Source of the DNA: a virus
Length of the DNA stretch: 31,143 bases
IMG/VR virus record: IMGVR_UViG_3300045996_004606
Span: 1 to 31,143 of that record
Direction: 5' to 3' (one strand)
This document shows, piece by piece, positions 1,633 through 31,143 of this stretch. Both the position numbers and the translations under genes were made by a program. How positions within the stretch are numbered: the first letter of the stretch is position 1; each line of letters starts with the position of its first letter. Under the pieces are notes generated by a model. The model did not search any database. It saw nothing but the letters and a program-made list of their open reading frames with translations, and was not told where the DNA came from.

Positions 1633-4226
1633 CAAGCGACTACCAAATCTTCGAGGACGGCCGTCACCAGTGGTTTTGCCTTGTCCTGACCGTTGCCGCT
1701 GCTGTTGCCCCGAAGGTGAAGGTCATCTTCGAAGTCAGTGCTGTTCCAAGTCCACAGCGTGGTGCCAGCCAGGCTGACATAGACGTAGTCTCCAGTTGGG
1801 TCGCTATCAGCCACCATGGCTGCCTCGTATATGTCGCGACCTACCAACTGGTCAGAGGTAGCGAGGTTGCTACCGATGACGCCCAGGATCACCGCCGGAT
1901 TGCCTGTCTCAGCCTTAATCTCCGCAACGAAGGCCTTTGTGTCGGTAATTAGCGTAGCGACGTTGGCAGTGCCAAACCGCGCTTGATCATTGGCAAAGCT
2001 AGCGCCGATCCCATAGATAACGTTGGTTCCGCAGGCCACAGCGGCCCTGACCATATCCTTGTCACTGTGGACCCAGGTAGGCGCCACCCCTATCGTGTCG
2101 AGGCCCGCCTGGTCCCAGCGCTGCTTCATGCGAACTAGCGTCGACCCCGAGAGAGCCCGATTAGTCACAAACAGCGGCCTACTGACGACGCCAGGATTAC
2201 CTTGGTAGTAGAAGGCCGAGGGGCCGCGCGTACCGGCGGGAAAGCCGCTCACGCTGTTGCTGTCGTGATTGTAAATGAAGGCGTTGCGCGTACCTCCGTC
2301 GGCCCATCTAATGGCATTACGATCAATCATCTTCAGAACATCGGCAACAACGTCGTCGGTAGTGGGCGCTTGGCCGAGCCGCATCGCCATGTCGAGGAAG
2401 GTCCCTGAGGGCGCGAGGAGCCCTGCAGAGTTTCCGAACAACTGAAATAGCCGAGCTGAGAATTCCGTATGGCTTGTATTCAGAACGTTTACCGGCTGGC
2501 CATTGACATAGATGCCGCGGAAGCCGTCCCGAGCTACCAGCGTGATGATAGTTGGACCGGCATCTTTCAGGCGGATGTTGGCGCCTGACGCACCCGTATT
2601 GACGGGCCCTGTCACAAGGGAACCATCGCTGTCATTGGTCCCGATGTAGAGCGTGGAAGTCGTTGTCGCGGGCGACAAATCACCAGCTACTTCGGTGCAG
2701 AAAATGCGGTTGTTGATGGTGGCGCCAGTGACGTCCACCATAACATGAACGCACAGATCGTCTATCAGCGTCGCTGCTGGGAAGCTGGGTGCGATCAAAT
2801 GGCCGAAGTTAACGCCGGAGGTCATAATGATCTCCTCGTTGGCGTCGAAGGTAATCGCTCCGCTATAGCTGAGACGTTTCTTAAAGTGCCAGTTGAACGG
2901 CGTATCGGCCATCTCATCGGCCCAGCTCGGCGTATCGCCAAACGGATAGCCTTGAAGCTCGTCATATAGCAGCGTCGGCGTATTGCTTCCGTCGCCGCGC
3001 ACTTGGTAGTCGATAGCGGTCACGCCGTCAGACACAACACCAGATGGGTCGCGGGGAAGAGCCTTCCAGGTGTCGTCGTTGACGGTATCGCTAGTAAGGG
3101 ACGCCGCCGCACCACGGCGAACGTTGGTCGTTCCGACTGCCGTACCTCTAACCTTGAGTGTCAAGTCCCATGCGTCAGCCGGAATTATGTCGTTGAGGAA
3201 TCGGAACGCAGAAGTAGTGGTGTGAAGGCCTTGAACAGCGCTATTCGGCGCAAGGCCGGCCGGACCCAGCGCAGCCTGCTTCGTGATGTTCACGCCACTG
3301 CTGGTGTTGCGGATATCGCCGGTGGTCAAGGCGAATAAGTTCCCGCTGGGAGATGTCAGCGAGCTTTCGTTCGCCATGTACCTACCGCTGTCGAGGAAGG
3401 CGGCCTTTGCGGACAGGACGGCCGTGGGGGTCAAATACCATTGCGGCTGTTCGTAGACTCGGAAGGCACTGGGCAGGCCGCTCCAATCGGCACCGGGAAC
3501 CTTCTGGCGCACCGCATCGCCAGCTGTGCCGGGGTTGCCCCGAAAATTTGCCGCGATGGTCCAGCCATTCGGGTCAGTGACGTACCAACCCTCATCAAAG
3601 CCAGCCAAGGCCGGGACGATGTCGATAAGGGTTCCCCCGCTTATCCCCAGACTATCAGCGACTCCTGCCCCGGCCTGCTCGATGTGGTTGAGTGCCGCGT
3701 TCTTCTGACCAACGATGGCGGCCGAGGCAGACGTCTCGGCCGCCTCCCCCGCCATCGCGACCTGTGCCAGCGCCTCCGCGCCCACTAGGGCAGCGACGTC
3801 GGTGATCAGTTCGTCGCGGGTGCCGAGTGGGAAGGTCACGTCGCCCAGCTCGACCTTGAAGGCCCGATCGACGTCGCGGCGCAGGTCCTGGACGATCAGG
3901 GTCAGGCGGTCCAGGGCGGTCTCGTGGGTCTCGGCCGGGAAGGCGTCGGCGGCGATGTAGTCGGCCGGCTGGACCAGGGCAGTCTCGGTCCACAGCACCA
4001 GGGTCTCGCCGGGCAGGATGGCGCGCGGGGTCGTCGCCTCGCCGCCGCCGGGGTCGTTGGCGCCTTCGACGATGAGGCCCTCGAGCGCCTCGCGCGCACC
4101 GTCGGACGAGACGACCGCCGCCTTGACCTCCGCCGCCGCCAGGAAGCGGAAGGGCACGGGGAACGGACCGGATCCGCCGTCGCCGGCGTAGGCTGAATAG
4201 CGGGGGGACGGGGCGGTGACGGTCAT
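1632..4226 (-). CDS. Tail fiber/spike with T7 gp17-like N-terminus, lectin-like domain and SGNH-type hydrolase domain
   Basis: 864 aa. Residues 1-125 match the virion-anchoring start of podovirus fibers (YSAYAGDGGSGPFPVPFRF, DAFPAETHETALDRLTLI), and a coiled Ala-rich stretch follows to about 190. Residues about 440-615 look like a concanavalin A/LamG beta-sandwich (GFRGIYVNGQPVNVL). Residues about 645-864 carry SGNH-hydrolase-like blocks: HDSNS at 654-658 in place of GDS(L), NRALSG at 689-694, YGIGAS at 738-743 and D834-x-x-H837. This would make a receptor-binding protein that can deacylate surface polysaccharide; the enzyme call is inferred. GC drops clearly after about residue 190 (DNA below 3660), as expected for a swapped receptor-binding module. 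ATG 4226 has GGGAG upstream. It is the first gene after late promoter P1 and overlaps the holin start. Confidence 0.82.
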   Translation of the reverse strand: MTVTAPSPRYSAYAGDGGSGPFPVPFRFLAAAEVKAAVVSSDGAREALEGLIVEGANDPGGGEATTPRAILPGETLVLWTETALVQPADYIAADAFPAETHETALDRLTLIVQDLRRDVDRAFKVELGDVTFPLGTRDELITDVAALVGAEALAQVAMAGEAAETSASAAIVGQKNAALNHIEQAGAGVADSLGISGGTLIDIVPALAGFDEGWYVTDPNGWTIAANFRGNPGTAGDAVRQKVPGADWSGLPSAFRVYEQPQWYLTPTAVLSAKAAFLDSGRYMANESSLTSPSGNLFALTTGDIRNTSSGVNITKQAALGPAGLAPNSAVQGLHTTTSAFRFLNDIIPADAWDLTLKVRGTAVGTTNVRRGAAASLTSDTVNDDTWKALPRDPSGVVSDGVTAIDYQVRGDGSNTPTLLYDELQGYPFGDTPSWADEMADTPFNWHFKKRLSYSGAITFDANEEIIMTSGVNFGHLIAPSFPAATLIDDLCVHVMVDVTGATINNRIFCTEVAGDLSPATTTSTLYIGTNDSDGSLVTGPVNTGASGANIRLKDAGPTIITLVARDGFRGIYVNGQPVNVLNTSHTEFSARLFQLFGNSAGLLAPSGTFLDMAMRLGQAPTTDDVVADVLKMIDRNAIRWADGGTRNAFIYNHDSNSVSGFPAGTRGPSAFYYQGNPGVVSRPLFVTNRALSGSTLVRMKQRWDQAGLDTIGVAPTWVHSDKDMVRAAVACGTNVIYGIGASFANDQARFGTANVATLITDTKAFVAEIKAETGNPAVILGVIGSNLATSDQLVGRDIYEAAMVADSDPTGDYVYVSLAGTTLWTWNSTDFEDDLHLRGNSSGNGQDKAKPLVTAVLEDLVVA

Positions 4227-4381: not shown

Positions 4382-4427
4382 CCGCTTATCGAAGCGGCGA
4401 AACCATTATCCCACGGCGGGCGGGGAA
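4382..4427 (-). promoter_or_regulatory. Late promoter-like element P1 with 5' hairpin
   Basis: On the minus strand: TTCCCC (-35-like, 4422-4427), an 11-bp spacer, GATAAT (-10, 4405-4410), then the invariant 13-mer CCGCTTCGATAAG. The 13-mer continues into CGG to make a 6-bp hairpin (CCGCTT/AAGCGG, loop CGAT, 4382-4397) at the expected RNA 5' end. It lies 156 bp upstream of the tail fiber ATG and just after the lipoprotein gene. It is one of four copies; the spacing fits Caulobacter housekeeping promoters (TTGACGS-N10-14-GCTANAWC), although this copy's -35 is weak. Confidence 0.7.
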
Positions 4428-10984: not shown

Positions 10985-11467
10985 CTACCACCCACGTCCT
11001 TCGCTTGATCCGGGTGCGCCCCAGTTGGCCGGATTGCCCCAGTTGGCGATCGAGAGGCGGCCAAGACCGCGTTTGCCGAACACCTGCTGCATGCCGCTCA
11101 CCTGCTCGGCGCTCAGCAGCGCCGCCTGGTTGTCGTACTCGGCGATCTTCAGGCGCCCCTCGTACCGCTCGGTCAGCGCGTCCAATTCTGCCAGCGTCGC
11201 GTCCTGGGTAGCGATCAAGCCATTCGAGCCCCCCGCTCCGGTCCCGCTTTCGGCGATGGCCGCGCGCTGGGCCCCGAGCAGTTGATCCGACTGCCGGCGC
11301 ATCGCCTCCTGCCGCATGGCCGACTGATCGCCGACGGTCCGGGCGTTCTCCCGCGCCACCTGGGCGCTGAAGGCGCGCTGAGCGGCGGTGGCCTGCCCAT
11401 CGGCCACGCCGCCGGCCACGCCGGCCACGGCGTTCACGATATTCAGTACGGCGCCTACCCAGGCCAT
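10985..11467 (-). CDS. Internal virion core protein (T7 gp14-like)
   Basis: 160 aa. A hydrophobic, Gly/Ala/Val-rich N-terminus (AVLNIVNAVAGVAGGVADG) is followed by a long Gln/Ala/Glu-rich helix with the RQEAMRRQSDQLLGAQRAAIAESG motif typical of small podovirus internal core proteins, and a C-terminal 'NWGNPANWG' repeat-like tail. T7 gp14 family members form the outer-membrane part of the ejection channel. ATG 11467 has AAGGAG 8 nt upstream and lies inside the end of the gp13-like gene (13-bp overlap), so the two are co-translated. Its own stop is one base from the next start. Confidence 0.7.
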   Translation of the reverse strand: MAWVGAVLNIVNAVAGVAGGVADGQATAAQRAFSAQVARENARTVGDQSAMRQEAMRRQSDQLLGAQRAAIAESGTGAGGSNGLIATQDATLAELDALTERYEGRLKIAEYDNQAALLSAEQVSGMQQVFGKRGLGRLSIANWGNPANWGAPGSSEGRGW

Positions 11468-11904
11468 GCCTGCTTCTCCTTGATGAAAGCCCAGCGTTCG
11501 GCGTCGCCGCCGTTGTCGCAGAAGGCCCGCATGCGGCCTTCGCGTTCGAAGCCCAGCAGGCGCGTCCAGCGCGCCGCCGGGGTGAAGTCGACCGCCGTCG
11601 CCGCCTCGATCCGGCGGAACGGCGCGGTCTCGAAATAGCGGCGCACGGCGCGGGTGGCGGACAGCATCGCGGCGCCCGCATCCTGCGCCAGCAAGGCCCA
11701 GGCCTCGCCTCGCCCGCCGCCGCGATCGATCACGCCGCCGCAGCCGACGACCCGGCCCCCGGCGCGCAGGGTCCAGGCCAAGCCCGACGCCTCCAGCGCC
11801 GCGCCCGCCGCCCCGTCGATCCGTCCCCGCCAGGCCGCCTGGGCCGGCTGCAGGACCAGCTGCTCGAGGTCGGCGGCCCGGAACGCAGCCACCTCACCCC
11901 TCAT
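11455..11904 (-). CDS. T7 gp13-like, GNAT-fold-like phage protein
   Basis: 149 aa. The pattern of a central strand-rich half (LAWTLRAGGRVVGCGGVID), an Ala-rich helix and a late strand/helix pair (RRIEAATAVDFTPAARWTRLLGFEREGRMRAF) resembles a GNAT acetyltransferase fold. The 'ARWTRLLGFEREG' part looks like the usual GNAT motif B, but a clear acetyl-CoA-binding Q/RxxGxG/A is lacking. Podoviruses often carry such a protein (T7 gp13 group) between the tail nozzle and internal core genes, where it aids internal core assembly. It overlaps the nozzle gene by 11 bp at its start and the gp14-like gene by 13 bp at its end. A real transferase activity is doubtful. Confidence 0.62.
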   Translation of the reverse strand: MRGEVAAFRAADLEQLVLQPAQAAWRGRIDGAAGAALEASGLAWTLRAGGRVVGCGGVIDRGGGRGEAWALLAQDAGAAMLSATRAVRRYFETAPFRRIEAATAVDFTPAARWTRLLGFEREGRMRAFCDNGGDAERWAFIKEKQAWPG

Positions 11905-14149
11905 AGGTCACCAGCTCCGGATAGAGCCCGGTCAGGGTGAACGGGAAACCGTCGTCGCCCTCGAAGGCGACGGTCGCCGCCCCGTCGTAGCCGCCCGGAA
12001 AGGTCATCGCGATATCGCCGCTGGTCAGCACCGGCGCCGCGTCCATCGGCTCACCCGCCTGCCGGTGCTGCAGGGGATCGCAGCGTCCGATGGCCGGGCC
12101 GAACCGACCGCCCAGGCTGTCCAGCAGCCGCACGGTCAGGGCATGCACCCGCTTGATCCGCCCCTGGGCGCTGCCGGACGCCGCCCCGGCCTCGAGCGGC
12201 ATCAGCTGGCCGGCATAGGGCGCCGGCAGGCCCACCACCGCCTTGCCGGCCGGCGCCTGCAGGGTGATCGTCCCATCGATGACTTCCCGGTTGGGATGGG
12301 CCGCGCCGTTGGCCTTCACCGTCACCGTCGCACCCTCAAGATGCTCAAGCCCCGACAGGGTCGAGGTCGGCGCGCCTTCGTAGGTCAGGGCGCTGGCGGC
12401 ATAGACGCTCAGGGCCTGGTCGCCGCCACTCTCGTATTCGGCCGCCATCACCTCGACGTAGCGCCGCCATTGCCCATCGATATACCTGCGGACGATCAGC
12501 CAGACATCGTCCCGCCCGCCGTCGGGCGAGGGGATCACCGCCACAGACTCGACCAGCCCGGCCAGCTGGTGCCGCCGCCAGGCGAACACCTTGTCCTCCA
12601 GCTGAAGGGTCAGCGCCTCCAGCCCCCCATCCTTCGTCACGCACCAGACGCTCTCGTGCGGCGTCTGCTGCCAGGCCATGGCGACGACCGGCGCCATCAG
12701 GCCACGGTACTTGTTGAGGTCCAGCGCCTCATAGCCGTCCTGGGCAGGCGCCAGCAGCCGCAACCGCCGGCCCAGCTTCTCGACGAACACCACCCCGGCC
12801 CCGACCTGCACCGGCTCGACTCCGACCCCGCCCCAGGCGGTCTCCGGATCCTGCTGGGTGTTGCCGGGCCCATAGGCCTGGCTGCTGGTCTGGGCCTTCA
12901 GGCTGTGCTCGCCGCCACCGGCCCCGATGAACAGCACCGAGCGGGTCGGGGTCACCCATTCGATGGGGTTGCCCTGGGCCGACTGGATGGACAGCACCAC
13001 GGCGCTGTCGGGCAGCACCTCGCCATGCGTCCGGGCCTCGAAGTTGGCGAAGTCGCCGGCCGTCGAATGCCAGACCTGCTGCCCCCGGAACCACGTCAGC
13101 CGTTCACGGAAGAAGCAGACGTTGTCCGGCCAACCCGCCTCGGCCGACCAGGCGCCGAACGCCCAGCGATGACTGGCCTGGGTGGTCAGCTCATCCGGCA
13201 GGCGCGACAGCACCACCGCCGTCGCCTCGGTCCCGCTGATCACGCCGGTGATGCGCACATGGCCATAGCCGCTGTGCAGATACTCCCACTCCACCCCGAT
13301 CGAGCCGACCGCCCCGTCGCCCTTCTGTTCCTCGCCGGTGCCGTCCCAGTACTTGCCGCGGGTGTGGATCGGCAGCTCCTCGCCGCAGATCGCTGGCTTG
13401 TCGCTGGTGTCCACGGGCCCGACCTGGGTGCAGATGTAGTGGCGATAGTCCGCTCGCCGGCGGTCGCCGACGTCGGTTGTCGTGCGCACCTGCCAGGCCC
13501 GCACGTCGGCGCCGTCCTTCAGTTCCAGCTCGAACAGCCCGCCGACGTGGTTTGGCCTGAAGATGTCGCCGCTCGCCATCAGGGTCACCGTGCCGCCGAC
13601 CGTCAGGGTTCCGGCCGCCGAGACGGTCACCGCTTCGTCGGTGTTGACGTCCTGGAAGGGCCCGCCCTTGGCCTCGAAGACCTCCAGCGTCCAGGTCAGA
13701 TTGGCCTCTCGCTTCAGCACGCGAGGCGCATGGCCGGCGCAGGCCAGGTAGACGACGTCGCCCGACTGTTCGCATCGCACGCCGAAGCGGCCGTCCGTCC
13801 GCGTGAGGTCGCCCGCCAGGTAGGGGCTCTCGATCTCGACAATCTCCTCCGTCTCGTCGACCAGCCGCCCGCGTCGCCAGAAGAAGCGGATGTAGCCGGG
13901 CCCGAACTCCAGCACGAAGGCGTCGGTCTGGCTGAACACGAAGGGGACCAGCCAGCACCGCTGGGCGCTGTCCTTGACCGCGCCGACGAAGAGGCTGCCG
14001 GCCGCCCGCTGCAGCGCCCCCTGCACCCGCGGGATGAGGTTGTCGCAGCGGCTGAGGCCCGACTGCCATTTCTCGAGGTCCGGCCGTCCTCCCAGCAGAG
14101 GCGACAGCAGGCCGGCGTTGAAGCTGGTGATGGCGGGATTGGCTTTCAT
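11894..14149 (-). CDS. Tail tubular protein B / tail nozzle (T7 gp12-like)
   Basis: 751 aa. The N-terminus (ITSFNAGLLSPLLGGRPDLEKWQSGLSRCDNLIPR) matches the conserved opening of podovirus nozzle proteins ('SFNAGELSPLL..R.D..KY..G...L.N..P...G'). The body is rich in beta strands and aromatic residues (RFFWRRGRLV, VQVGAGVVFVEKLGRRLRLL), as expected for beta-propeller/nozzle domains. It builds the lower tube of the short tail below the gatekeeper ring. The ATG at 14149 (MKANPAITSF) follows the tail tubular A stop by 10 bp. The C-terminus overlaps the gp13-like start. Length is close to T7 gp12 (794 aa). Confidence 0.82.
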   Translation of the reverse strand: MKANPAITSFNAGLLSPLLGGRPDLEKWQSGLSRCDNLIPRVQGALQRAAGSLFVGAVKDSAQRCWLVPFVFSQTDAFVLEFGPGYIRFFWRRGRLVDETEEIVEIESPYLAGDLTRTDGRFGVRCEQSGDVVYLACAGHAPRVLKREANLTWTLEVFEAKGGPFQDVNTDEAVTVSAAGTLTVGGTVTLMASGDIFRPNHVGGLFELELKDGADVRAWQVRTTTDVGDRRRADYRHYICTQVGPVDTSDKPAICGEELPIHTRGKYWDGTGEEQKGDGAVGSIGVEWEYLHSGYGHVRITGVISGTEATAVVLSRLPDELTTQASHRWAFGAWSAEAGWPDNVCFFRERLTWFRGQQVWHSTAGDFANFEARTHGEVLPDSAVVLSIQSAQGNPIEWVTPTRSVLFIGAGGGEHSLKAQTSSQAYGPGNTQQDPETAWGGVGVEPVQVGAGVVFVEKLGRRLRLLAPAQDGYEALDLNKYRGLMAPVVAMAWQQTPHESVWCVTKDGGLEALTLQLEDKVFAWRRHQLAGLVESVAVIPSPDGGRDDVWLIVRRYIDGQWRRYVEVMAAEYESGGDQALSVYAASALTYEGAPTSTLSGLEHLEGATVTVKANGAAHPNREVIDGTITLQAPAGKAVVGLPAPYAGQLMPLEAGAASGSAQGRIKRVHALTVRLLDSLGGRFGPAIGRCDPLQHRQAGEPMDAAPVLTSGDIAMTFPGGYDGAATVAFEGDDGFPFTLTGLYPELVTYEG

Positions 14150-14159
14150 CCGTCCCGCC

Positions 14160-14762
14160 TCACAGTCTGGCCAGGACCCACGCCCCGTCGGGCGTGGATT
14201 CCGGAGCCGTCTCGATGGCGTTGACCCGCACCGCCTCGCGCACGCTGAGCTGATAGTCGCGCAGCGCCGCCTCCTTCTTGCCCGACGACTGGGTCAGCTT
14301 CTCGGCCAGGTCGAAGGCCAGGCGGCAGGCCACCGCCTCGGCGAACAACGGATCCCAGGCCGCCACGTCCTCGGCCCGCCGCACATAGCGGATGTCCAGC
14401 GGCGCGGCCGCGTCGGTCAAGATCCGCCCGCCCTCCAGCGCAAAGGCCGGCTGGCTTGCGCCCTGGTAGTCAGCCAGACCCGGCGTCACCGCCACCCCGC
14501 CGACCTCGACCAGCCGCAGACAGTCCGTCGGCAGAGGAAACTGCCGCTGATAGCCGAAAGCCGGCGCCAAGGCCTCGGCGCTCAGCCGCGCCCGGGCCAT
14601 GGCGAAGTGCCAGCGATTGGCGCGCAGGCACAGGTCCCGCACATCGGCGAACCGGCTTTTCAGCCAGCGGGCCCGGTCGTCGGGATCGTCGAACGACAGC
14701 ACCGCGCCTTGGCCTAGCTTGCCGAGCGCCGCGTTACCGACCGCGGTGGAGGATGTGGGCAT
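14160..14762 (-). CDS. Tail tubular protein A / gatekeeper (T7 gp11-like)
   Basis: 200 aa from ATG 14762 (MPTSSTAVGNAALGKLG). The sequence has the family's features: an early helix (DDRARWLKSRFADVRDLCLRANRWHFA), a FPLPTDCLRL core strand, and a late AVACRLAFDLAEKLTQSSGKKEAALRDY helix. Tail tubular A proteins form the dodecameric ring under the portal. An in-frame extension to 14954 reads across a strong hairpin and the upstream gene and is rejected. Its order after capsid and before the nozzle copies the T7 order 10-11-12. Confidence 0.8.
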   Translation of the reverse strand: MPTSSTAVGNAALGKLGQGAVLSFDDPDDRARWLKSRFADVRDLCLRANRWHFAMARARLSAEALAPAFGYQRQFPLPTDCLRLVEVGGVAVTPGLADYQGASQPAFALEGGRILTDAAAPLDIRYVRRAEDVAAWDPLFAEAVACRLAFDLAEKLTQSSGKKEAALRDYQLSVREAVRVNAIETAPESTPDGAWVLARL

Positions 14763-15495: not shown

Positions 15496-16368
15496 CTAGC
15501 TCTCGGCGCAGAGCACCTCGACGACCTTCTTCTCCTCGGTGCGGGTGGCGCCGATGGTCACCGAGCCGGTGACCTCCATCGGATTGCCCTCCAGGTCGCG
15601 GCGCGGGCCGATGTCGGTGGCCACGTCCGACCAGATGCCCAGGTGCATGCCGCTCTTGGCGTAGATCGGCACCCGGCGGTTGGCGCCCGACAGGGTCAGC
15701 CGCTCGCAGTGCACGAACTCGATGCCAAGGAAGCGGGTGATGATCCCCTCCTTCAGCACCGGCCGGTCGCCGCCGTTGAAGTCCGAGCTGGTGATCTCGA
15801 TCTCGCCGAGCAGGGCGTCGTGCTGCACCGAGTTGACCACACAGATGATGGGGTCGTTGGCCAGGTCGACCTCATTGGCCATCAGGATCTTCTTGGCGGC
15901 CCGCAGCTTCTCGAAGGTCAGGCCGACGCCGCCGTGCGCCACCTGCTGGCCGGCCGGGAAGGAGGTCGTCGTCCCACCTTGCTTGCCGGTGCGCGCATCG
16001 GCGAAGAAGGCGCGGATGATCTCGTCGTCGATGCGCCGGCCGAGGCTGGCGGTGCAGGCCTGGACCAGCGGGTTCTGCGGGTCCGAGGCGGTCTGCAACA
16101 GGTCGATGTTGTCGACGATGTCGCTCCAGTCGAAGAAGCGGGGATAGGCCCAGCGCCGGTCGACCGGCGTGTTGGCGCTCTCCTTGGGCACGGCGCGGCC
16201 GGTGCGCTCGCGCGCCTCGGTGACGCCGTACTGGTCGACGGGGCTGGCGCCCTCGCCCTTGTGGCTGCCGACCATCACATGGTTGCGCAGCTTCGACCCG
16301 CGCTGTTGCAGGAGCAGGCTCGCCGTCTTGGCGAATTCGATACGATATTGGGTGGAAAAGTCCGTCAT
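15496..16368 (-). CDS. Major capsid protein (podovirus HK97-fold)
   Basis: 290 aa starting MTDFSTQYRIEFAKTASLLLQQ. It has the look of T7 gp10-type capsid proteins: an N-terminal arm (RGSKLRNHV), a long middle (DWSDIVDNIDLLQTASDPQNPLV then the ACTASLGRRIDDEIIRAFF helix), a second helix (LTFEKLRAAKKILMANEVDL), and a beta-rich end (GIITRFLGIEFVHCERL, HLGIWSDVATDIGPR). It assembles the icosahedral head with the scaffold encoded upstream. ATG 16368 is about 100 bp downstream of late promoter P2, so it is the first gene of the long operon ending at 5061. The scaffold, usually its immediate neighbour, is separated by a plus-strand cargo gene. Confidence 0.85.
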   Translation of the reverse strand: MTDFSTQYRIEFAKTASLLLQQRGSKLRNHVMVGSHKGEGASPVDQYGVTEARERTGRAVPKESANTPVDRRWAYPRFFDWSDIVDNIDLLQTASDPQNPLVQACTASLGRRIDDEIIRAFFADARTGKQGGTTTSFPAGQQVAHGGVGLTFEKLRAAKKILMANEVDLANDPIICVVNSVQHDALLGEIEITSSDFNGGDRPVLKEGIITRFLGIEFVHCERLTLSGANRRVPIYAKSGMHLGIWSDVATDIGPRRDLEGNPMEVTGSVTIGATRTEEKKVVEVLCAES

Positions 16369-16466: not shown

Positions 16467-16514
16467 CGCTTCTTATCGAAGCGGCTCACCTATTATAGCG
16501 CTTGAAGCGGGCAA
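16467..16514 (-). promoter_or_regulatory. Late promoter-like element P2 with 5' hairpin
   Basis: On the minus strand: TTGCCC (-35, 16509-16514), an 11-bp spacer, a perfect TATAAT in GCTATAAT (-10, 16492-16497), then the invariant CCGCTTCGATAAG (16472-16484). Here the hairpin is shifted by two bases: CGCTTC pairs with GAAGCG around GATAA (16467-16483). GCTATAAT matches 7 of 8 positions of the Caulobacter -10 consensus GCTANAWC. It drives the capsid operon and is the most convincing sigma-type promoter of the four copies. Confidence 0.78.
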
Positions 16515-17581: not shown

Positions 17582-18439
17582 CTAGCCTTCCCCGCCCGCG
17601 ATCCTCGTCAGCCGCGACCACTCCGCCTTCTCGTCGGCGCCGCCGGCCATCCACCGCGCCTGCCAGGCCTGGTCGCGACGCAGGGAGGCGATGCGGCTCT
17701 CGGCCTGCTCTCGGCTCATGCCGAAGCCAGAGCGACCCTCGCCCTCGATGAAGCGATCCTCGGCCAGGCCCTCGCCGATCCGGGCGAACAGCTCGACCGT
17801 GCGCCGCGTGCCCAGGCCCGCCTCGATGCTGGCCATCTCCTGGCGCGACAGGCCGAAGGTCAGCGCCCCGCGGCGGAAGGTCTCGGTGTTCTGGGCGAAC
17901 CTCGGGCCCCATTCGCGCTGCAGGTCGATCCAGTCGGCCTGGCTCTGGGCCTCGAAGGCTGCCTGAGCCGCCGCCTCGCGCTCGCCGACATAGGTGTTCC
18001 ACTTCTCGGCCAGCGCCCCGGCCCGCGCCTTGCCGACCCCGGCCTCGAACAGCCATTCGGCCGCCCGATCGCTGAACTCCGGATCGGCCCCGGCCAGTTC
18101 GCCGAACCCGTACTCCGCCGCCGTCTCGGGCCGCCCCAGCGCGGTGAAGGCCCGCGCATAGCCATCGGCGTCATCCTCGCCGCTCGGCAGCGGCACGCGC
18201 CCGGACGACATCATCCGCTCCAGCGAGGCGAAGCTGGCGCCCAGCGCCTGCACATCCTTGAAGCCCTTGCGCTCCATGTAGCCGCGCGTCGCCTCGTCGG
18301 TGAAATGATCCAGGAAGGAGGGCGCGCCGGCGGAAACCTCCGCGTCCGGAGCATCGTCCATCAACCCGTCGATCGACGGCGTTTGGTCGCTCATCCCTTG
18401 CTCACTCATCCCCAATTCACTCATCCCCGATTCACTCAT
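17582..18439 (-). CDS. Capsid scaffolding protein
   Basis: 285 aa, acidic, highly helical. After an acidic N-terminus it shows the pattern of phage scaffolds: SFLDHFTDEATRGYMERKGF, SFASLERMM, and a central AEYGFGELAGADPEFSDRAA ('...P..Y.f......d...d..a..l.e.Gls..qa..l...' form), ending with TRIAGGEG. Scaffolds bind inside the procapsid and leave or are cleaved during packaging. The first four codon quintets are a tandem repeat, each beginning ATGAG(T/C)G and preceded by GGG, giving four in-frame start codons (18439, 18424, 18409, 18394). The first ATG overlaps the Bbp19-like gene's stop by 8 bp. Confidence 0.8.
   Translation of the reverse strand: MSESGMSELGMSEQGMSDQTPSIDGLMDDAPDAEVSAGAPSFLDHFTDEATRGYMERKGFKDVQALGASFASLERMMSSGRVPLPSGEDDADGYARAFTALGRPETAAEYGFGELAGADPEFSDRAAEWLFEAGVGKARAGALAEKWNTYVGEREAAAQAAFEAQSQADWIDLQREWGPRFAQNTETFRRGALTFGLSRQEMASIEAGLGTRRTVELFARIGEGLAEDRFIEGEGRSGFGMSREQAESRIASLRRDQAWQARWMAGGADEKAEWSRLTRIAGGEG
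18380..18439 (-). repeat. 15-bp tandem repeat carrying four in-frame start codons
   Basis: Four 15-bp units of the form ATGAGTGAATTGGGG, the third and fourth diverging, encode MSESG-MSELG-MSEQG-MSDQT. The GGGG/GGG at the end of a unit precedes the next ATG directly, so spacing is too short for an ideal Shine-Dalgarno, but AGTGA and GGG give every ATG a similar context. Confidence 0.75.
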
Positions 18440-18707
18440 CGATGGCCTCTTCCTTCAGGTTGAACAGGGCCCGGTCGTCGATAGCGACCATGGCGCGGAT
18501 GCGGTTGAACACCTCCTGGCGGCCGACCAGCCGCATCGAGGCCAGCGGGTCCACGGCCCCGTCGGGGCTGCGCGCCACCGGCGCCTCGGGAACCATGCAG
18601 AAGCGTTTCAGATCGGCCAGCACGGCCCGCGCCTCCCCCACCGAGCCGTCGCCGAACAGGGCCTGATAGGCGCGCTTGCGGCGCAGCAGGGGGTGCAGCA
18701 GATCCAT
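18432..18707 (-). CDS. Bbp19-like small phage protein
   Basis: 91 aa. RAYQALFGDGSVGEARAVLADL followed by KRFCMVPEAP and DPLASMRLVGRQEVFNRI is the pattern of the Bbp19 family of Bordetella phage BPP-1 and related podoviruses (start 'AY..lF.......vL.DL..FC', then 'd.......eGrR.v...I'). Its molecular role is unknown. It is always found near portal and scaffold genes. The ATG (18705-18707) shares its A with the portal TGA, and its stop overlaps the scaffold start, so portal, this protein and scaffold form one translationally coupled unit. A much longer reading in this frame up to 19781 is a shadow of the portal gene. Confidence 0.78.
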   Translation of the reverse strand: MDLLHPLLRRKRAYQALFGDGSVGEARAVLADLKRFCMVPEAPVARSPDGAVDPLASMRLVGRQEVFNRIRAMVAIDDRALFNLKEEAIDE

Positions 18708-20362
18708 CACTGGCCCTCCAGCAGCCCGGCCGCCGCGGCGTCCTTGGCGACCCCCGCCGCCTGGCCGGCCGCGCCGAGCATGGACTGCAGCCTGGCCATC
18801 GCCTCGTCCTGCTGCGCCAAGGCGTCCATGTCCTCGGCGCTGCGCAGCAGCCCGGCCGGCGCCCCGCGGATTTCGGCCAGCCGCCGCAGGGTCTCGGGTC
18901 CCTTGATCATCTTCACCGCCGAGGGGTCGAACTGCCCGACCGCCGCGGCGTCCTCCAGCAGCCGCAGGATCGCCACCCCCTCGTCGCTCTTCTGGGCCCG
19001 GGCCAGGGGCGAGGTGTAGTCGATGTCCGTGACCACATGCTCCAACCCGTCCAGCTCCGACGGCATCTGCGGCAGCACGCCCGCCCCGGCCAGGATGTCG
19101 AGCTCGGCCTGGACCAGCGGTCCCAGCAGTTCCGACTGCAGCCGCCCCATCACCGGCGCCAGCAGCGCCCCCTTCTCCTGGGCCCGCAGCATGGCCTCGG
19201 TCGCCGTCATCTGCGGCGTCTCGACCAGAATCTGGAACAGGGTGACCAGGAAGGCCTGGTTGATCGACTCCCGCGTCTGACTGATCATCTCGAGCGTGAT
19301 CGGCATGTTCGCCCCTACCGACAGCGGCCGCACCAGCTCGGCGCCATCCGCCGACAGGGCCCCGCGGTTGATCGCCCGCGGCTGCAGCTTGAAAGCCGTC
19401 AGCCCGCCCTCGTCCGACAGCAGCAGCGGCGGCTCGGCGATCAGCTGGCCGGTGCGCAGCAGGGTCTTCTGCTGCTCGTTGACCGTCTTGATGTCGGCCA
19501 GCACCGTCATCGCCGGCCCGCGCCCGTAGACCTCGCGCGGCGCCGTCACGTAGCGGGCCACGGCATAGCGCATGGTCCGATAGCCCTGTTCCTTGAGCAG
19601 CTTGCGCCCCTCGAAACTGACGTACCAGCTGGCGAAGGCCATTCCCCGCCAGTCCTTGCGCGACCAATCGGCGTCCTCTCGCGGGCCGACGCAGTGGACC
19701 AGCTCGAACTTGCGGTGCGATTCGGTCTCCGCGGCGCGCCGGATGCTGTCGGGCGTCTCCTCGCCGAACTTCTGCAGCCACTGGCGGGCGGTCAGTTCGA
19801 ACTTGCGGTGCACCGTGTCGACCTGGCCCTGGAAGTTCTCGGCGAACCAGGTCTCGGCGAAGGGGATCGAGCGATAGCGCAGCCCGCCGCTTCCCACACT
19901 GTCTTGGGGCGCCTCGTCGACGAACAGCGTGCCGTTGCCGAAGGCGCCCAGGCCGACATAGGTCTCATGCGCCTGGGCCGCGAAGTTGGCGCCGGCCGCA
20001 TAGCGGGCCGAGAACAGCGTCTCGTTGACCTGCCCCAGCCAGACCCGCACGCTTTCGGGCAGGTTCGCCGCCCGCCCGCGCTCGTCGCGCCAGTCGCGGA
20101 GGGCCAGCTCGTGCCAGCGGCTGGTCCGCGGCGTCAACATGCTCTCGATGGCCGCCGCGAACTTGTCGAGCGCCAGTGGCGCGGTGCTGTCGAACACCTT
20201 CTCGGACCGCCAGGCCGCCGCACCGCTCTGCCGGCCCGTGAAGTCCCGCTGCCGGGTCAGCACCCGCTCGGCCACCTCCTGGCAGACCCCGTCCAGCGGG
20301 GCCCGCTCGGCTTCCATGCGGGCCTGGCGGCGCAACACCTCTTCGGCGCGACTGTCGGTCAT
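18707..20362 (-). CDS. Portal / head-tail connector protein (T7 gp8-like)
   Basis: 551 aa, close to T7 gp8 (536 aa). Family features: an N-terminal RQARMEAERAPLDGVCQEV helix, FDSTAPLALDKFAAAIESML ('D.Ta..a...lAs.l...ltP'), SRWHELAL, a GLGAFGNGTLFVDE ('fGtg.l') segment, the PREVYGRGPAM motif preceding ADIKTVNEQQKTLL (the portal stem region), and a C-terminal Gln/Ala-rich tail. The dodecamer forms the DNA entry vertex and contacts terminase and tail tubular A. ATG 20362 has GGAG upstream and is 83 bp downstream of late promoter P3. It is normally next to the terminase in such genomes. Here 7 kb of cargo lies between. Confidence 0.87.
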   Translation of the reverse strand: MTDSRAEEVLRRQARMEAERAPLDGVCQEVAERVLTRQRDFTGRQSGAAAWRSEKVFDSTAPLALDKFAAAIESMLTPRTSRWHELALRDWRDERGRAANLPESVRVWLGQVNETLFSARYAAGANFAAQAHETYVGLGAFGNGTLFVDEAPQDSVGSGGLRYRSIPFAETWFAENFQGQVDTVHRKFELTARQWLQKFGEETPDSIRRAAETESHRKFELVHCVGPREDADWSRKDWRGMAFASWYVSFEGRKLLKEQGYRTMRYAVARYVTAPREVYGRGPAMTVLADIKTVNEQQKTLLRTGQLIAEPPLLLSDEGGLTAFKLQPRAINRGALSADGAELVRPLSVGANMPITLEMISQTRESINQAFLVTLFQILVETPQMTATEAMLRAQEKGALLAPVMGRLQSELLGPLVQAELDILAGAGVLPQMPSELDGLEHVVTDIDYTSPLARAQKSDEGVAILRLLEDAAAVGQFDPSAVKMIKGPETLRRLAEIRGAPAGLLRSAEDMDALAQQDEAMARLQSMLGAAGQAAGVAKDAAAAGLLEGQ

Positions 20363-20440: not shown

Positions 20441-20487
20441 GCCGCTTATCGAAGCGGCAGGACTATTATCCCACATCGGCGGGGCAA
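20441..20487 (-). promoter_or_regulatory. Late promoter-like element P3 with perfect 5' hairpin
   Basis: On the minus strand: TTGCCC (-35, 20482-20487), an 11-bp spacer, GATAAT (-10, 20465-20470), then the invariant CCGCTTCGATAAG extended to a perfect 7-bp hairpin (GCCGCTT/AAGCGGC, loop CGAT, 20441-20458). The sequence CTGTTGCCC around the -35 is shared with P2. It lies between the divergent portal and FG-GAP/RTX genes and serves the portal operon. Confidence 0.76.
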
Positions 20488-23135: not shown

Positions 23136-23315
23136 TCAGCCCATCAGCACCTTGGTCGCCACCCCGCCCTCGCTGCGGCCCAGGGCGTTCGACAGGAAGG
23201 TGGCGGCGCGGCCCTGGCGCAGGCGCAGGCGGTCGCTTTCCTCGGCCCGCTTGCGGGCGTCGTTGATGGTCGGCGGCGGCGGGGTTGGCCGCGGCGACTT
23301 CATGTCCGGTTGCAT
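23136..23315 (-). CDS. Small phage protein of the portal-terminase region (59 aa)
   Basis: A 59-aa basic protein: a Pro-rich start (SPRPTPPPPTINDARKRAEE), a charged helix (SDRLRLRQGRAATFLSN) and a conserved-looking end (GGVATKVLMG). Small proteins with 'Pro-rich - (T)ID.AR.....d..RrRrGRaat.lt......aa....tK.LLG' are frequent near podovirus portal genes; the function is unknown. I found it by reading the minus strand below P4; it is too short for typical ORF cut-offs. AAGGAGAG stands just before ATG 23315, and that AAGGAG directly follows the invariant P4 13-mer, so its leader is only about 20 nt. It appears to be monocistronic, with its stop 6 bp from the FG-GAP/RTX stop. Confidence 0.8.
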   Translation of the reverse strand: MQPDMKSPRPTPPPPTINDARKRAEESDRLRLRQGRAATFLSNALGRSEGGVATKVLMG

Positions 23316-23323
23316 GCTCTCTC

Positions 23324-23368
23324 CTTATCGAAGCGGTGGAACCATTATCCCACGTCCGGTCCCCGCAA
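23324..23368 (-). promoter_or_regulatory. Late promoter-like element P4
   Basis: On the minus strand: TTGCGG (-35-like, 23363-23368), a 13-bp spacer, GATAAT (-10, 23344-23349), then the invariant CCGCTTCGATAAG (23324-23336). Unlike the other copies, the 3' hairpin arm is replaced by the Shine-Dalgarno AAGGAG of the 59-aa gene, leaving only a weak four-pair stem. It lies in the divergent space between the 59-aa gene and the hybrid histidine kinase. Confidence 0.7.
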
Positions 23369-27642: not shown

Positions 27643-29139
27643 TCAGTCCTCAAACACCCGGCCTGCCTCGGCGAACTCCGCGACCGGCCCGCTCACCGGC
27701 CGGCTCAGCCGGTCGATCACCCGGCCGATCAGCGACAGGCAGTCGACCTCGTCGTCATGCCGCCCGGCCGGGAAGGCCACGCACTCCTCGATGAAGCAGT
27801 CGCCGTCGCCGTCGTCGCGCACCCACACCCGGCCCTCGCGCACCAGCGACTGCGCCGACCGCGCCCGGGTCGGCTTGTCCTGCGAGGATGCCAGCCACTC
27901 CAGCTGGCAGGCCAGCCGCCGCTCCCGCAGCGCTGCCTTCAACATCGGCTCCACCGCCCGCTGGATCACCCCGGCCTCGCCGAACCATTTGCGGATGCCG
28001 CCCAGCGGCCGGAACTCGGCGACCAGGTCGCACTGCTGCTGGATCCATTGATCCGCCGTTGTCCGCCCGCCCCAGCTGGCCACCCGCCACAGGTTCAGCT
28101 GCGCATCGACGCCCCACACCGTCAACCGCGTATAGTCCCCCCGCCCCTCGCTGACCGCATAGTCGCTGGAGCCGTAGTAGCGCAGCGCCCGGGGCTGCTC
28201 GCCCTCGGCAAACCGGCGGAAGCAGGACCGCTGGAAGTACCCGCCTTCATCCGGCTTCGGCCGCTGCTGGTAGAGGGCGGTCCAGGTGCGCGGGTTCAGC
28301 TTGAACTGTCCCCAGTGGTCTTCGCTCCAGTATTCCGGCCACAGGTAGTCGCCGACGGCGCGCCCCAGCGGATCGTCGGCCCGCTCGGCCTGGGCCGGGA
28401 TGTTGACCACCTCCCAGACCTCGCCGTCGCGGCACAGCACCGGGCCGGAGCGCCCGTCGTAGTCGGCCGGCAGCAGGCTCCCGGCCAGATCGTCCTCATG
28501 CCAGCGGGTCTGGATCAGCACGATCCGCCCGCCGGCCTTCAGCCGCGTGCGGACGGTGTCGTCGAACTCCTCCCGCGTGCGCCGGCGGATCAGGGCGCTG
28601 TCGGCCTCGGCTCTCCCCTTCACCGGGTCGTCGATGACGATCAGATCGGCCCGGTTGCCGGTGATCCCCGCCAGCATGCCGGCTCCCATCCAGTCGCTGC
28701 CGTTGTCGAGCGCCCAGTCCACCGCGCTGGCTCGCCCCCTGTCCGGCCCCGCATCGAAGATCTGCCTGAACACCGGCTGCCGCGCCACCGACCGCGCCTT
28801 GCGTCCCCGCCGACCGGCCAGGCTGGTGGCGTAGGTCACGCACAGCACCGACCGGTTCGCCCTCCGCCCCAGGAACCAGGGCGTGAAGACATCGACCGCA
28901 TAGGTCGACTTGGCCGACCCTGGCGGCATGAACCCCATCAGCCGCCGGATCTGCCCCTGCTCCAGCGCCTCCAGCTTCTCCAGCCACAGCCTGTGGTGCG
29001 CCGCCAGCCTGACCCGCCCGCCGACCCCGGGCACCTCGATCAGGCGGCAGAAGCTGGCCAAGCTGCGCCGCGCCGCCTTGGCGCCCCTGAGCGGCAGCGG
29101 CTCGTTCGGCGGCGGGTCGCCCGCCGTCCCGCTCACCAT
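27643..29139 (-). CDS. Terminase large subunit (packaging ATPase-nuclease)
   Basis: 498 aa from ATG 29139. Walker A MPPGSAKSTY (71-80), Walker B LIVIDD (166-171), coupling motif IQTRWHEDD (209-217), then a nuclease domain with D326 (YGSSDYAV) and the C-terminal HDDEVD (461-466) typical of the RNase H-like fold. It pumps DNA into the procapsid and cuts concatemers. The start overlaps the end of the GcrA-like gene; GAGGA directly precedes it (GTG 29136 is an alternative with better spacing). A longer frame to 29637 is a shadow of that gene. No separate small terminase is recognised in the window. The portal, usually adjacent, is 7 kb away behind cargo. Confidence 0.88.
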   Translation of the reverse strand: MVSGTAGDPPPNEPLPLRGAKAARRSLASFCRLIEVPGVGGRVRLAAHHRLWLEKLEALEQGQIRRLMGFMPPGSAKSTYAVDVFTPWFLGRRANRSVLCVTYATSLAGRRGRKARSVARQPVFRQIFDAGPDRGRASAVDWALDNGSDWMGAGMLAGITGNRADLIVIDDPVKGRAEADSALIRRRTREEFDDTVRTRLKAGGRIVLIQTRWHEDDLAGSLLPADYDGRSGPVLCRDGEVWEVVNIPAQAERADDPLGRAVGDYLWPEYWSEDHWGQFKLNPRTWTALYQQRPKPDEGGYFQRSCFRRFAEGEQPRALRYYGSSDYAVSEGRGDYTRLTVWGVDAQLNLWRVASWGGRTTADQWIQQQCDLVAEFRPLGGIRKWFGEAGVIQRAVEPMLKAALRERRLACQLEWLASSQDKPTRARSAQSLVREGRVWVRDDGDGDCFIEECVAFPAGRHDDEVDCLSLIGRVIDRLSRPVSGPVAEFAEAGRVFED

Positions 29140-29669
29140 TCCTCGCGCACCGGCGCCTCGGCGCCCCTGAACCGGTCCCAGCCCATGCCCTCGCGCCGCT
29201 CCACCGGACGCGGCTGCATCGCCTGTCGCTCCCAGGCCCGCGGCCGACGCACCGAGCGCGCCCGGTGCCCCTCGCAGTAGACCCCGCGCGCGCCGCCCCG
29301 CCTGCAGCCGCAGAACAGCTGTACGCCACGGGCGTCCTCGCCCACCGGCCACAGGCACTCGTCTTCGCCCAGGTCCTCCAGCCGCCGCATCCGCGCCGGT
29401 TCCAGAACCAGCGGCGGCGGCCCGCGCATCGGCGTCGCCGCCTCGGTCGTCTCGCCGCGCCGCCAGCCCAGCCTGGCGATCTTGCCGCTGATCACGCCCT
29501 TGGCCACGCCCATGCGGCCGGCGATCAACAGGTGCGACAGGCCGGCGTCGAACAGGCGGCGAAGCTGGTCCAACCGCTCGCGCGGCCATTCGGCCCGCGC
29601 CCGGCGGGGGATGTCGGAAACAGGCGCGCGGGAACACCCCGCCGCGCCGGAAGCGGCAGCGATCTGCAT
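29133..29669 (-). CDS. GcrA-family transcription regulator (phage-borne)
   Basis: 178 aa from ATG 29669. The N-terminal DNA-binding part (W28 to W69: RERLDQLRRLFDAGLSHLLI, then MGVAKGVISGKIARLGW) and the C-terminal sigma-binding-type end (ECLWPVG 104-110, FCG 119-121, YCEGH 131-135) match GcrA's W-T-E-R...N-A-V-I-G-K-...R-L-G-L and C-x-W-P...F-C-G...Y-C-x-x-H pattern. GcrA binds sigma70 and activates promoters, in Caulobacter at CcrM-methylated GANTC sites. Lying between cro and terL in the first minus-strand transcript, it could switch on late genes, but I found no GANTC near the four late promoters. It may instead act as a small terminase-like DNA-binding protein by position; several phages use such HTH proteins. 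The upstream extension to 29858 overlaps the Cro-like gene and is rejected. Confidence 0.8.
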   Translation of the reverse strand: MQIAAASGAAGCSRAPVSDIPRRARAEWPRERLDQLRRLFDAGLSHLLIAGRMGVAKGVISGKIARLGWRRGETTEAATPMRGPPPLVLEPARMRRLEDLGEDECLWPVGEDARGVQLFCGCRRGGARGVYCEGHRARSVRRPRAWERQAMQPRPVERREGMGWDRFRGAEAPVREEW

Positions 29670-29713
29670 GTCGGTCACTCTTGGACTGGAGGAGAAAGGG
29701 AGAGGCTCGGCGA

Positions 29714-29941
29714 TCAGCCGGGAGAGGCGCGGCTCCGCGCCGCCGCCGCCCCGGCCAGGTCCTCGAGGCTGGCGTAGCCGCGCAGCACGATGGCCGCCCA
29801 GTAGCGCGGCGGAATCGAGTCCGACCGCTTCCATTGATGGGCGCGGCCGGCGGGGCATTTCAGCGTCCGGGCCAGCCGTGAGGGTCCACCGGCGAGCGCA
29901 ATGACGTCGCGGTGGCTCCGATGGGGTTCTGTATCGGGCAT
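29714..29941 (-). CDS. Cro/YdaS-like repressor
   Basis: 75 aa from ATG 29941 (MPDTEPHRSHRDVIALAGGP). The core AGGPSRLARTLKCPAGRAHQ followed by WKRSDSIPPRYWAAI is typical of YdaS/Cro HTH proteins ('GG.s.lA..lg.....V..W.....IPp.yw..i'). It is divergent from the S24 repressor with three operator-like dyads in between, the first starting 8 bp upstream of its start. A TTGAGC-N17-TACAGT promoter would start transcription at about the ATG, giving a leaderless mRNA, and there is no Shine-Dalgarno. It should repress the lysogenic repressor and open the lytic transcript cro-gcrA-like-terL. Confidence 0.82.
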   Translation of the reverse strand: MPDTEPHRSHRDVIALAGGPSRLARTLKCPAGRAHQWKRSDSIPPRYWAAIVLRGYASLEDLAGAAAARSRASPG

Positions 29942-29947
29942 GAGAGC

Positions 29948-29976
29948 ACTGTACAAAAAATACAGCACAAGCTCAA
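29948..29976 (-). promoter_or_regulatory. Predicted cro promoter
   Basis: On the minus strand: TTGAGC (29971-29976), 17-bp spacer, TACAGT (29948-29953). Operator O1 overlaps the -10 and spacer, so bound repressor would block it. The start point would fall at or near the cro ATG (29941), consistent with a leaderless transcript. Confidence 0.5.
29949..29965. promoter_or_regulatory. Immunity operator O1 (CTGTA-N7-TACAG)
   Basis: A 17-bp perfect dyad CTGTA-CAAAAAA-TACAG covering the -10 of the predicted cro promoter. It is one of three similarly spaced dyads between the two divergent regulators. Confidence 0.72.
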
Positions 29977-29983
29977 CCCCCAT

Positions 29984-30000
29984 CTGTAGACAAGATACAG
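29984..30000. promoter_or_regulatory. Immunity operator O2 (CTGTA-N7-TACAG)
   Basis: A 17-bp perfect dyad CTGTA-GACAAGA-TACAG, identical in arms to O1, centre 35 bp from O1's centre. It stands upstream of both predicted promoters. Confidence 0.72.
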
Positions 30001-30006
30001 GAATTA

Positions 30007-30023
30007 ACGTAGGTTTCCTACAT
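30007..30023. promoter_or_regulatory. Immunity operator O3, overlapping repressor start
   Basis: A dyad ACGTA-GGTTTCC-TACAT with the same GTA-N7-TAC core as O1 and O2 but changed outer bases, hence possibly weaker. Its spacer is itself palindromic (GTAGGTTTCCTAC). It covers the first bases of the repressor gene (ATG 30022), suitable for autorepression or Cro control of the repressor. Confidence 0.55.
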
Positions 30024-30654
30024 GAGCCCGCCCGCCGACCTCTCCTCTCCCCATGCCGCGGGCGCAGAACGCCTGCGTCGCGCCCGCCGGGCCAAGGGCC
30101 TGGGCTCGGCCGCCGAGGCCGCCCGCGCCCATGGCTGGAACCTCAACACCTACGCCTCCAACGAGAACGGCAACGCCAGCTTCTCCTTCCGCAAGGCCGA
30201 GGATTACGCCCGCGCCTTCGGGGTGCGGGCCGAGTGGCTGTACGCCGGCAAGGGGGCGATGAAGGCCAGGCGCGCCGGCCTGCCGGTGCTGGGCAAGGTG
30301 GCGGCCGGGGCCGAGGCGGTGTTCGACGACGACTACGAGATGGGCGCCGCCCACGACTGGCTGGACCCCATGGTCCCCGAGGACGGCATCGTCCTGACCG
30401 TCGACGGCGAGAGCATGATGCCCCGTTTCCGCCACGGCGAGCGCCTGATCTTCGGCCGCCGCTACGACGACCCCAGCCCGCTGGTCGGCCAGGAGGTCAT
30501 GGCCCGCCTCGCCGACGGCCGAAAGGTGGTCAAGATCCTGCGCCGCGGCGCCGCCCCCGGCCTGTGGACCCTGGAGAGCATCAACACCCGCTTCAAGCCG
30601 ATCGAGGATGTCGAACTGCTCTGGGCCCTGCCGTTCATGGGCCTGCGGGTTTGA
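30022..30654 (+). CDS. Phage repressor with S24/LexA-type self-cleavage domain
   Basis: 210 aa. N-terminal HTH (about 14-58: GAERLRRARRAKGLGSAAEA ... NLNTYASNENG), then a linker with a likely cleavage site Ala95-Gly96 (LGKVAAGAEAVF), catalytic Ser131 (VDGESMMPRFRHGE) and Lys171 (VVKIL), spaced 40 residues apart as in CI/LexA. Such repressors keep the prophage silent and cut themselves when bound to RecA-ssDNA, so the prophage should be SOS-inducible. ATG 30022 lies inside operator O3 and has only a weak AGG upstream. It is transcribed away from all late genes. All residues required for cleavage appear present. Confidence 0.88.
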   Translation: MSPPADLSSPHAAGAERLRRARRAKGLGSAAEAARAHGWNLNTYASNENGNASFSFRKAEDYARAFGVRAEWLYAGKGAMKARRAGLPVLGKVAAGAEAVFDDDYEMGAAHDWLDPMVPEDGIVLTVDGESMMPRFRHGERLIFGRRYDDPSPLVGQEVMARLADGRKVVKILRRGAAPGLWTLESINTRFKPIEDVELLWALPFMGLRV

Positions 30655-30732: not shown

Positions 30733-31143
30733 CTAGGCCAGGGCCAGCAGCCCCCGGCTCCGCTCGAAGCCCTCGAACAGGTCGCTCAGCGCCTCGACAT
30801 GGTCGCGGGCCAGCTTGTTGATCGGTTCCGAGCGCAACACCTCCGACGGCACCATCACCCCCCGCACGCCGACCGGGCGGCAATGGCCGCTGGCGATCAG
30901 CCGATGCACATAGCGCCGGGCCGTCTCGCGCGGCAGGCCCAGGGTGCGGGCCACCGAGGCGATGGTCACCGCCCGCCGCATGCCGTCCGGGAAAACCCCA
31001 TCGATGGCCAGCGGGCTGGGCAGCGCCGGCTCGTTCAGATGCTTCACACTGCCCTGGCAGATGGCCAGGAAGGTCGCGGCCAGCAGGACGTCGCCATCGA
31101 ACGGCGCGCTGAGCACCGTTATCTGCCGCAGGAAATAGTCCAT
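30733..31143 (-). CDS. Winged-helix transcriptional regulator (C-terminal part or whole)
   Basis: 136 aa visible, with an ATG exactly at the window edge, so the true start may be further upstream. A helical N-terminal part (DVLLAATFLAICQGSVKHL) precedes a winged helix-turn-helix (VTIASVARTLGLPRETARRYVHRL, then the GHCRPVGVRGVMVP wing), the MarR/IclR-like arrangement. The end (LSDLFEGFERSRGLLALA) is helical. Similar proteins are known from Caulobacterales chromosomes, so this could be the first host gene beyond the prophage or a phage regulator. It is convergent with the repressor gene, 78 bp apart, with no clear terminator between. Confidence 0.6.
   Translation of the reverse strand: MDYFLRQITVLSAPFDGDVLLAATFLAICQGSVKHLNEPALPSPLAIDGVFPDGMRRAVTIASVARTLGLPRETARRYVHRLIASGHCRPVGVRGVMVPSEVLRSEPINKLARDHVEALSDLFEGFERSRGLLALA

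Follow-up and report, generated by a model that had tools for sequence, protein, structure and literature searches.

The window analyzed here, IMG/VR record IMGVR_UViG_3300045996_004606 at its full length of 31,143 bases, is a piece of a fixed bacterial element that is distributed over several loci, and this goes beyond an earlier note on the same DNA. A gene of the GcrA family lies in the cI/cro control locus of the element, and three relatives of the window keep this gene at a place from which terL is gone. The more far-reaching result is that a clade of the genus Caulobacter has a dispersed element which resembles gene transfer agents (GTAs) and carries T7-like tail genes. Its setting does not look like that of a free phage genome; the element looks related to GTAs, with several loci, vertical inheritance and a T7-like tail. 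The window probably holds most of this domesticated element at one locus of the clade, and its dispersed regulon would be served by a sigma-70 co-activator that derives from GcrA and does without methylation.

The GcrA-like gene and its setting

The earlier note placed a GcrA-like regulator directly between cro and terL, and this is what we found (Table 1). The positions that it gave, 29133-29941, hold two minus-strand genes, the cro-like one and the GcrA-like one, and the stop codon of the latter overlaps the ATG of terL by 7 nt. The cI gene is divergent from cro, gcrA and terL and lies on the other strand; operator-like sites comparable to the two between cI and cro in the window are present in the six regions compared. 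The GTG start of the GcrA-like gene is kept in three close relatives. The cro-like gene matches the profiles carph-isopro NF046037 (E=1e-7, 32.1 bits, under the 38-bit cut-off) and YdaS_toxin (E=3e-4, likewise under the cut-off).

The GcrA-like protein is a member of the family PF07750 (59.2 bits, E=8.3e-16; cut-off 26.9). With the GcrA equivalog NF050816 it scores 36.3 bits, far under the cut-off of 280 bits, so that it is a relative of host GcrA and not host GcrA itself; in those carriers of the element (defined below) where a host gcrA copy was found, it lies at a separate locus. The protein has the two-domain plan of GcrA, with an N-terminal DNA-binding domain, a linker and a C-terminal sigma-interacting domain, and both the helix-turn-helix (HTH) and the C-terminal motif are common to nine orthologues. 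Residues C108, W110, P111, F122, C123, G124, Y134, C135 and H138 are invariant in all nine aligned sequences, and this conserved motif predicts binding to region 2 of sigma-70. The turn of the HTH is one residue shorter than in host GcrA, and the residues of the recognition helix differ (host gcrA was compared by eye). A structure model with a mean predicted local distance difference test score (pLDDT) of 68.8 (83 in the C-terminal domain) matches the GcrA DNA-binding domain (5yiu/5yiv, Z 6.2), the sigma-interacting domain (5yix, Z 5.0) and also 7ye1. With Z values this modest and domains this small, we treat the structural evidence as secondary, and the sequence match weighs most. A Foldseek search of the model against the PDB gave nothing at E 0.001 or better, with GcrA (7ye2) fifth in the ranking.

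The only close viral relatives of the protein that a search found are in L003 and L004, with the gene in the early region; in L003 it is seen by eye near a DnaB-like gene. The GcrA motif was found beside terL in none of 80 viral TerL relatives, 10 of which have 500 nt or less upstream.

The absence of replication genes, also remarked on in the earlier note, holds for the window genes that were scanned: the predicted genes, apart from some short open reading frames, were scanned against PHROGs and Pfam, with no match for replication, recombination or integrase. The better reason for this absence is that the element has been endogenised, rather than an unusual lambdoid layout.

Inheritance and dispersal of the element

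The major capsid protein (MCP) was found at an identity of at least 87% in eight of 75 genomes of the genus Caulobacter (G001-G007 and G054), here called carriers; they had first been found through TerL, and the count is that of the MCP search. A 51% capsid relative in G008 and relatives of 27-29% in three genomes were not counted. Among 249 genomes sampled from the family, 12 had any capsid match, six of these at at least 87%. TerL relatives with identities of 69-86% are present in genomes labelled Caulobacter or Brevundimonas.

A tree was built from the host protein ProA, encoded near the element, with the 30 best-matching genomes of the 72 that had a match; in it the eight carriers form one side of a branch with support 100/97. 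The same host genes in the same order flank the element in G001, G003, G004, G005, G007 and G054; on its other side G054, G003 and G006 have a flank in common. The structural block of G004 appears inverted. The tree of the element (portal, MCP, 18432 and scaffold) and that of the host agree in the groups G004 with G005, G003 with G006, and G001 with G002 and G054; the window falls in the last of these groups. GcrA and CI gave weaker trees: that of GcrA puts G007 with G003 and G006 at 93/88, and that of CI has only one starred branch. The ratios of non-synonymous to synonymous rates (omega) are 0.05-0.14 for MCP and 0.06-0.17 for portal, demonstrating purifying selection, and the synonymous divergence (dS) is close to that of flanking host genes.

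The terminase genes are dispersed. The gcrA gene abuts terL in six of the nine copies of the locus (the window, G001, G002, G004, G005 and G054). In G003, G006 and G007 the order is cI, cro, gcrA, the small late gene at 23136 and portal, and terL is on another contig; the IMG/VR contigs L325 and L326 also have this order without terL. G054, a complete chromosome of 4.47 Mb, has three terL copies, and genes of the element lie there at unlinked places, megabases apart. Several TerLs, among them those of G001 and G002 and the orphan copies, begin with an HTH that is related to the Cro-like protein; the TerLs of the window, G004 and G005 are without this N-terminal HTH. Just before the start codon of the orphan terL genes in G003, G006 and G007 is CTGTATTTTTGATACAG, which resembles the operators between cI and cro.

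As side observations, the orphan terL copies appear to be autoregulated through the cI/cro operator, and a Cro/YdaS-like N-terminal HTH is found on TerL in L086, L087, L088 (two of them), L089, L092 and L094.

With a Terminase_2 protein from G054 as the query, relatives of terS were found in 10 of the 75 genomes: seven of the eight carriers (two to five rows each, 26 rows) and, weakly, three non-carriers. Two of the 26 rows are pieces of one gene, which gives 25 places. At 23 of these the gene start coincides with a GATAAT-N-CCGCTTCGAT box or closely follows one: 22 were found by a script allowing one core mismatch, and G004:C61, cut off by the window of the script, was taken from the list of a looser pattern. 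At the other two places the gene is cut by the contig end (L279) or is a C-terminal fragment with no script match (L289). The terS matches of the three non-carriers have no box.

Three of the properties given for GTAs in section 3 of PMC9662315 were found here. The particle proteins (portal, capsid, tail and TerL) are Caudoviricete-derived, the element is endogenised at multiple loci, and it is vertically inherited and has co-diversified with its host.

The late promoter box and the proposed control

The box consists of GATAAT and the core element CCGCTTCGAT just downstream. The window contains four exact copies of CCGCTTCGATAAG, all on the minus strand and upstream of late genes, which are presumably the promoters P1-P4 of the earlier note. 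With one core mismatch allowed, the boxes before the 23136 gene and before portal are each kept in eight of nine copies; the box before the capsid gene has the standard -10 in four copies and a variant -10 in two more (G003 and G054), and that before the fibre gene is found in six. We confirm that the four late promoters have no GANTC, the nearest being more than 130 bp away, so that a methylation-dependent mode like that of the host is unsupported. The GANTC near target promoters that goes with the GcrA equivalog is thus missing at these four boxes, the putative targets. Across the whole window GANTC is depleted (31 found vs 128.5 expected).

A strict form of the pattern, run on all 75 genomes, was found in five, all of them carriers (50 sites in G054, 24 in G001, 10 in G002, six in G006 and five in G003), and in none of the 67 non-carriers; the reversed-pattern control gave 0. 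The strict pattern misses the carriers G004, G005 and G007. The looser pattern, run on the carriers alone, was found in all eight.

The role of a late-gene activator working with host sigma, one of two that the earlier note had offered for the protein, is favoured, if indirectly, because both GcrA domains are kept, the candidate promoters are without GANTC, and no regulator other than gcrA has stayed with cI and cro in every carrier; the late-promoter element common to structural, terS and orphan terL genes also points to it. CI would repress the cro-gcrA(-terL) operon through CTGTA-N7-TACAG operators, and its inactivation would allow the GcrA-like protein to be made. This protein would contact host sigma-70 at region 2 with its C-terminal domain; the altered HTH would read, or help to melt, the promoters formed by GATAAT and the downstream CCGCTTCGAT, with no need for GANTC methylation. 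Late genes (the 23136 gene, portal, capsid and tail fibre) would then be switched on, and the same activator would switch on the scattered terS and orphan terL genes in trans. Promoter recognition, sigma binding and the order of expression are thus inferred, as are packaging and transfer of host DNA. A core element lying immediately past the -10 would be compatible with a GcrA structure titled 'TACdown', which we take from its title to be a downstream-bound state.

Several observations weigh against this reading. The link from the GcrA-like protein to promoter and sigma is one of co-occurrence and domain content, and the element is known here from its genes, its particles, packaged DNA and transfer being predictions. 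The search with the G054 query gave no terS match in the carrier G002. The structural genes of G007 are without the box, so that read-through from gcrA must suffice there, or this copy is decaying. Forty three of the 50 sites in G054 have the TATAAT form, and those examined (18) are mostly the end of an intergenic repeat with no gene directly downstream; because many G054 copies sit at repeat ends, the presence of a box is not enough to identify a gene promoter. Where the GATAAT form precedes late genes and terS, it does identify one consistently. The GcrA-like protein (omega 0.16-0.60) evolves faster than the capsid. An empty-site comparison at proA in three non-carriers met with different flanking genes, as these genes differ outside the clade.

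The repeat itself is found at 43 places in G054:C1 (18 of them in L244-L263). It is intergenic and roughly 300 bp long, with the palindrome AATATGTCTAGACATATT, CCTAC arrays and the end GGTATAATGGTNNGCCGCTTCGATA; in many cases a convergent gene ends 4-33 bp before it, and its strands form runs along the chromosome (14 runs, p=0.007). A role of the T-class promoter copies as tRNA promoters was unsupported, with one tRNA in 20 regions.

Table 1. Features of the window (positions in the 31,143-base record; rmsd, root-mean-square deviation)
Feature	Position	Strand	Details
GcrA-like gene	29133..29678	-	181 aa from GTG 29678; ATG 29669 possible start; PF07750
Predicted HTH DNA-binding domain	29460..29594	-	residues 29-73; pLDDT about 88; 5yiv Z 6.2, rmsd 1.5, 44 aligned
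Predicted sigma-interacting domain	29247..29399	-	residues 94-144; C-x-WP...FCG...YC..H; 5yix_B Z 5.0, rmsd 2.7, 48 aligned
cro-like gene, carph-isopro/YdaS HTH	29714..29941	-	sub-cut-off profile matches
Operator-like CTGTACAAAAAATACAG	29949..29965		between cI and cro
Operator-like CTGTAGACAAGATACAG	29984..30000		between cI and cro
cI-like repressor, HTH and S24 peptidase	30022..30654	+	profile matches
IclR-HTH-like flank gene adjoining cI	30733..31143	-	kept in G001, G002 and G054, 80-83% identity
terL	27643..29139	-	phrog_38 E=1.6e-87; without the N-terminal HTH found in several relatives
Late promoter box before 23136-23315 gene	23324..23351	-	GGGATAATGG...CCGCTTCGATAAG
Small late gene	23136..23315	-	phrog_831 E=0.001
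Late promoter box before portal gene	20445..20472	-
Portal / head-tail adaptor	18707..20362	-	phrog_332 E=2e-131
Scaffold-like protein	17582..18409	-	phrog_3742 (unknown function) E=7.6e-30; role inferred from position
Late promoter box before MCP gene	16472..16499	-	TATAAT variant
Major capsid protein	15496..16368	-	phrog_3437 E=2.3e-66
Tail tubular A-like protein	14160..14702	-	phrog_394, phrog_9239
Tail tubular B-like protein	11894..14149	-	phrog_376 E=5.5e-177
Internal virion protein	10985..11437	-	phrog_418 E=3.5e-12
Late promoter box before tail fibre gene	4385..4412	-
Tail fibre	1632..4226	-	phrog_1640, phrog_6518

The structural set of the window is T7-like, comprising portal, scaffold-like protein, capsid, tail tubular proteins A and B, internal virion protein and fibre. 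Carrier regions were joined from adjacent pieces and their genes were called with a simple codon-usage score, so that starts and small genes may be wrong. Other genes are interspersed. HipB-like and HipA (PF07804) genes (26008-27581, minus strand) are inserted between terL and the late genes and were not found in G001 or G054. A hybrid histidine kinase gene (23483-25582, plus strand) is in the same place in G001, G002 and G054, with 83-85% identity to the window; in G054 a TIR-domain gene (L192:6407-7426) between kinase and terL suggests a variable cargo site. An FG-GAP/RTX-type repeat protein (20625-23129, plus strand) is encoded amid the late genes, and related large proteins are found near orphan terL loci.

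Alternative explanations and related systems

The late promoters could be served by host sigma-70 together with another host factor, and the GcrA-like protein could alter the host cell cycle during production, a role that has been proposed for gp222 of phiCbK. This would agree with the promoter link to GcrA being one of association and with what PMC3556154 says of the GcrA homologues of phiCbK-like phages, which are proposed to reprogram the host and thought to act on its genes. The recognition-helix residues unlike those of host GcrA, the promoters without GANTC and the fact that all nine copies keep gcrA at the cI/cro control locus speak against it, and we consider it rather improbable.

It is still less likely that the window represents a temperate phage that is still active and integrates strictly at one attachment site, the constant flanks and scattered terminases being the outcome of repeated integration and old prophage debris. 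IMG/VR lists the record as a virus, and a cI/cro switch and lysis-like genes are present. However, no integrase or replication gene was recognised among the genes scanned, the groups of the element tree match those of the host with similar dS in both, terL is elsewhere in three carriers, and the scattered terS genes, which lie almost exclusively in carriers, share the promoter of the element itself.

The second role offered by the earlier note, that of a captured small terminase whose HTH binds pac DNA and which hands it to the product of the overlapping terL, would suit the position directly upstream of terL, where terS usually lies and where canonical-looking terS genes were seen by eye in the relatives L005, L007, L093 and L095, as well as the lack of another recognised terS in the window, but is very improbable, since true Terminase_2 genes are present in trans under the late promoter in seven of eight carriers, so that the GcrA-like protein need not be one, gcrA remains with cI/cro where terL is elsewhere, no TerS family of PHROGs or of Pfam matches the protein at E 0.001, and its invariant sigma-interacting motif (9/9 copies) would be needless for a terminase.

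The activator reading can be compared with known systems. Host GcrA is described as an activator acting on sigma region 2 (PMC7403470), and GcrA regulons differ, Brevundimonas having peaks without GANTC (PMC7987155). Like host Caulobacter GcrA, a PF07750 sigma-70 co-activator, the protein has an N-terminal HTH, a loose linker and a C-terminal sigma-interacting domain; unlike it, its gene sits in a cI/cro locus and its candidate target promoters are without GANTC. Phages of the phiCbK-like group and the Microcystis phage Mwe-JY13 likewise encode GcrA-family proteins, but are free phages, unlike the element described here; in Mwe-JY13 the gene is three genes upstream of terL, and no cI/cro-gcrA unit was seen at that locus.

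Among GTAs, the CcGTA of C. crescentus is under the dedicated activators GafY and GafZ together with IHF, GafY being reported to contact RpoD domains 3-4, and has about 18 further accessory promoters (PMC11150451). The element resembles it in its putative dedicated activator, its further scattered promoters and the predicted contact with sigma, and differs from it in the T7-like tail genes and in a candidate activator derived from GcrA and predicted to act on sigma region 2, not domains 3-4. Like the viriforms RcGTA and BaGTA (PMC9662315), it is endogenised, vertically inherited and multi-locus and keeps capsid and terminase genes. Unlike them it has a T7-like tail, one to three terL genes (some with an N-terminal HTH) and up to five scattered terS genes, and it is known from genes alone; in RcGTA, TerS is reported to adjoin terL (PMC7947584). 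Within the open-access literature searched, no paper on a T7-tailed Caulobacter GTA turned up.

A wider reading, which we hold as tentative, is that of an independent T7-derived lineage of Caulobacter GTAs whose scattered parts, among them several small terminases and relocated HTH-TerL fusions, form one regulon under the methylation-independent sigma-70 co-activator derived from GcrA. Many packaging start sites may then be provided by the dispersed terS genes, and perhaps also by the repeats of roughly 300 bp, these sites deciding which regions of the chromosome are exported.

If this reading is true, GTAs would have arisen again, from a T7-like ancestor, in the genus that includes the model species of CcGTA. 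A borrowed cell-cycle regulator would serve as the master switch and would exemplify, in nature, a GcrA-type factor that has lost its dependence on DNA methylation. How scattered virus genes are kept under common control would become testable. Given the several small terminases, one may ask whether a cell is able to choose the parts of its chromosome that are packaged.

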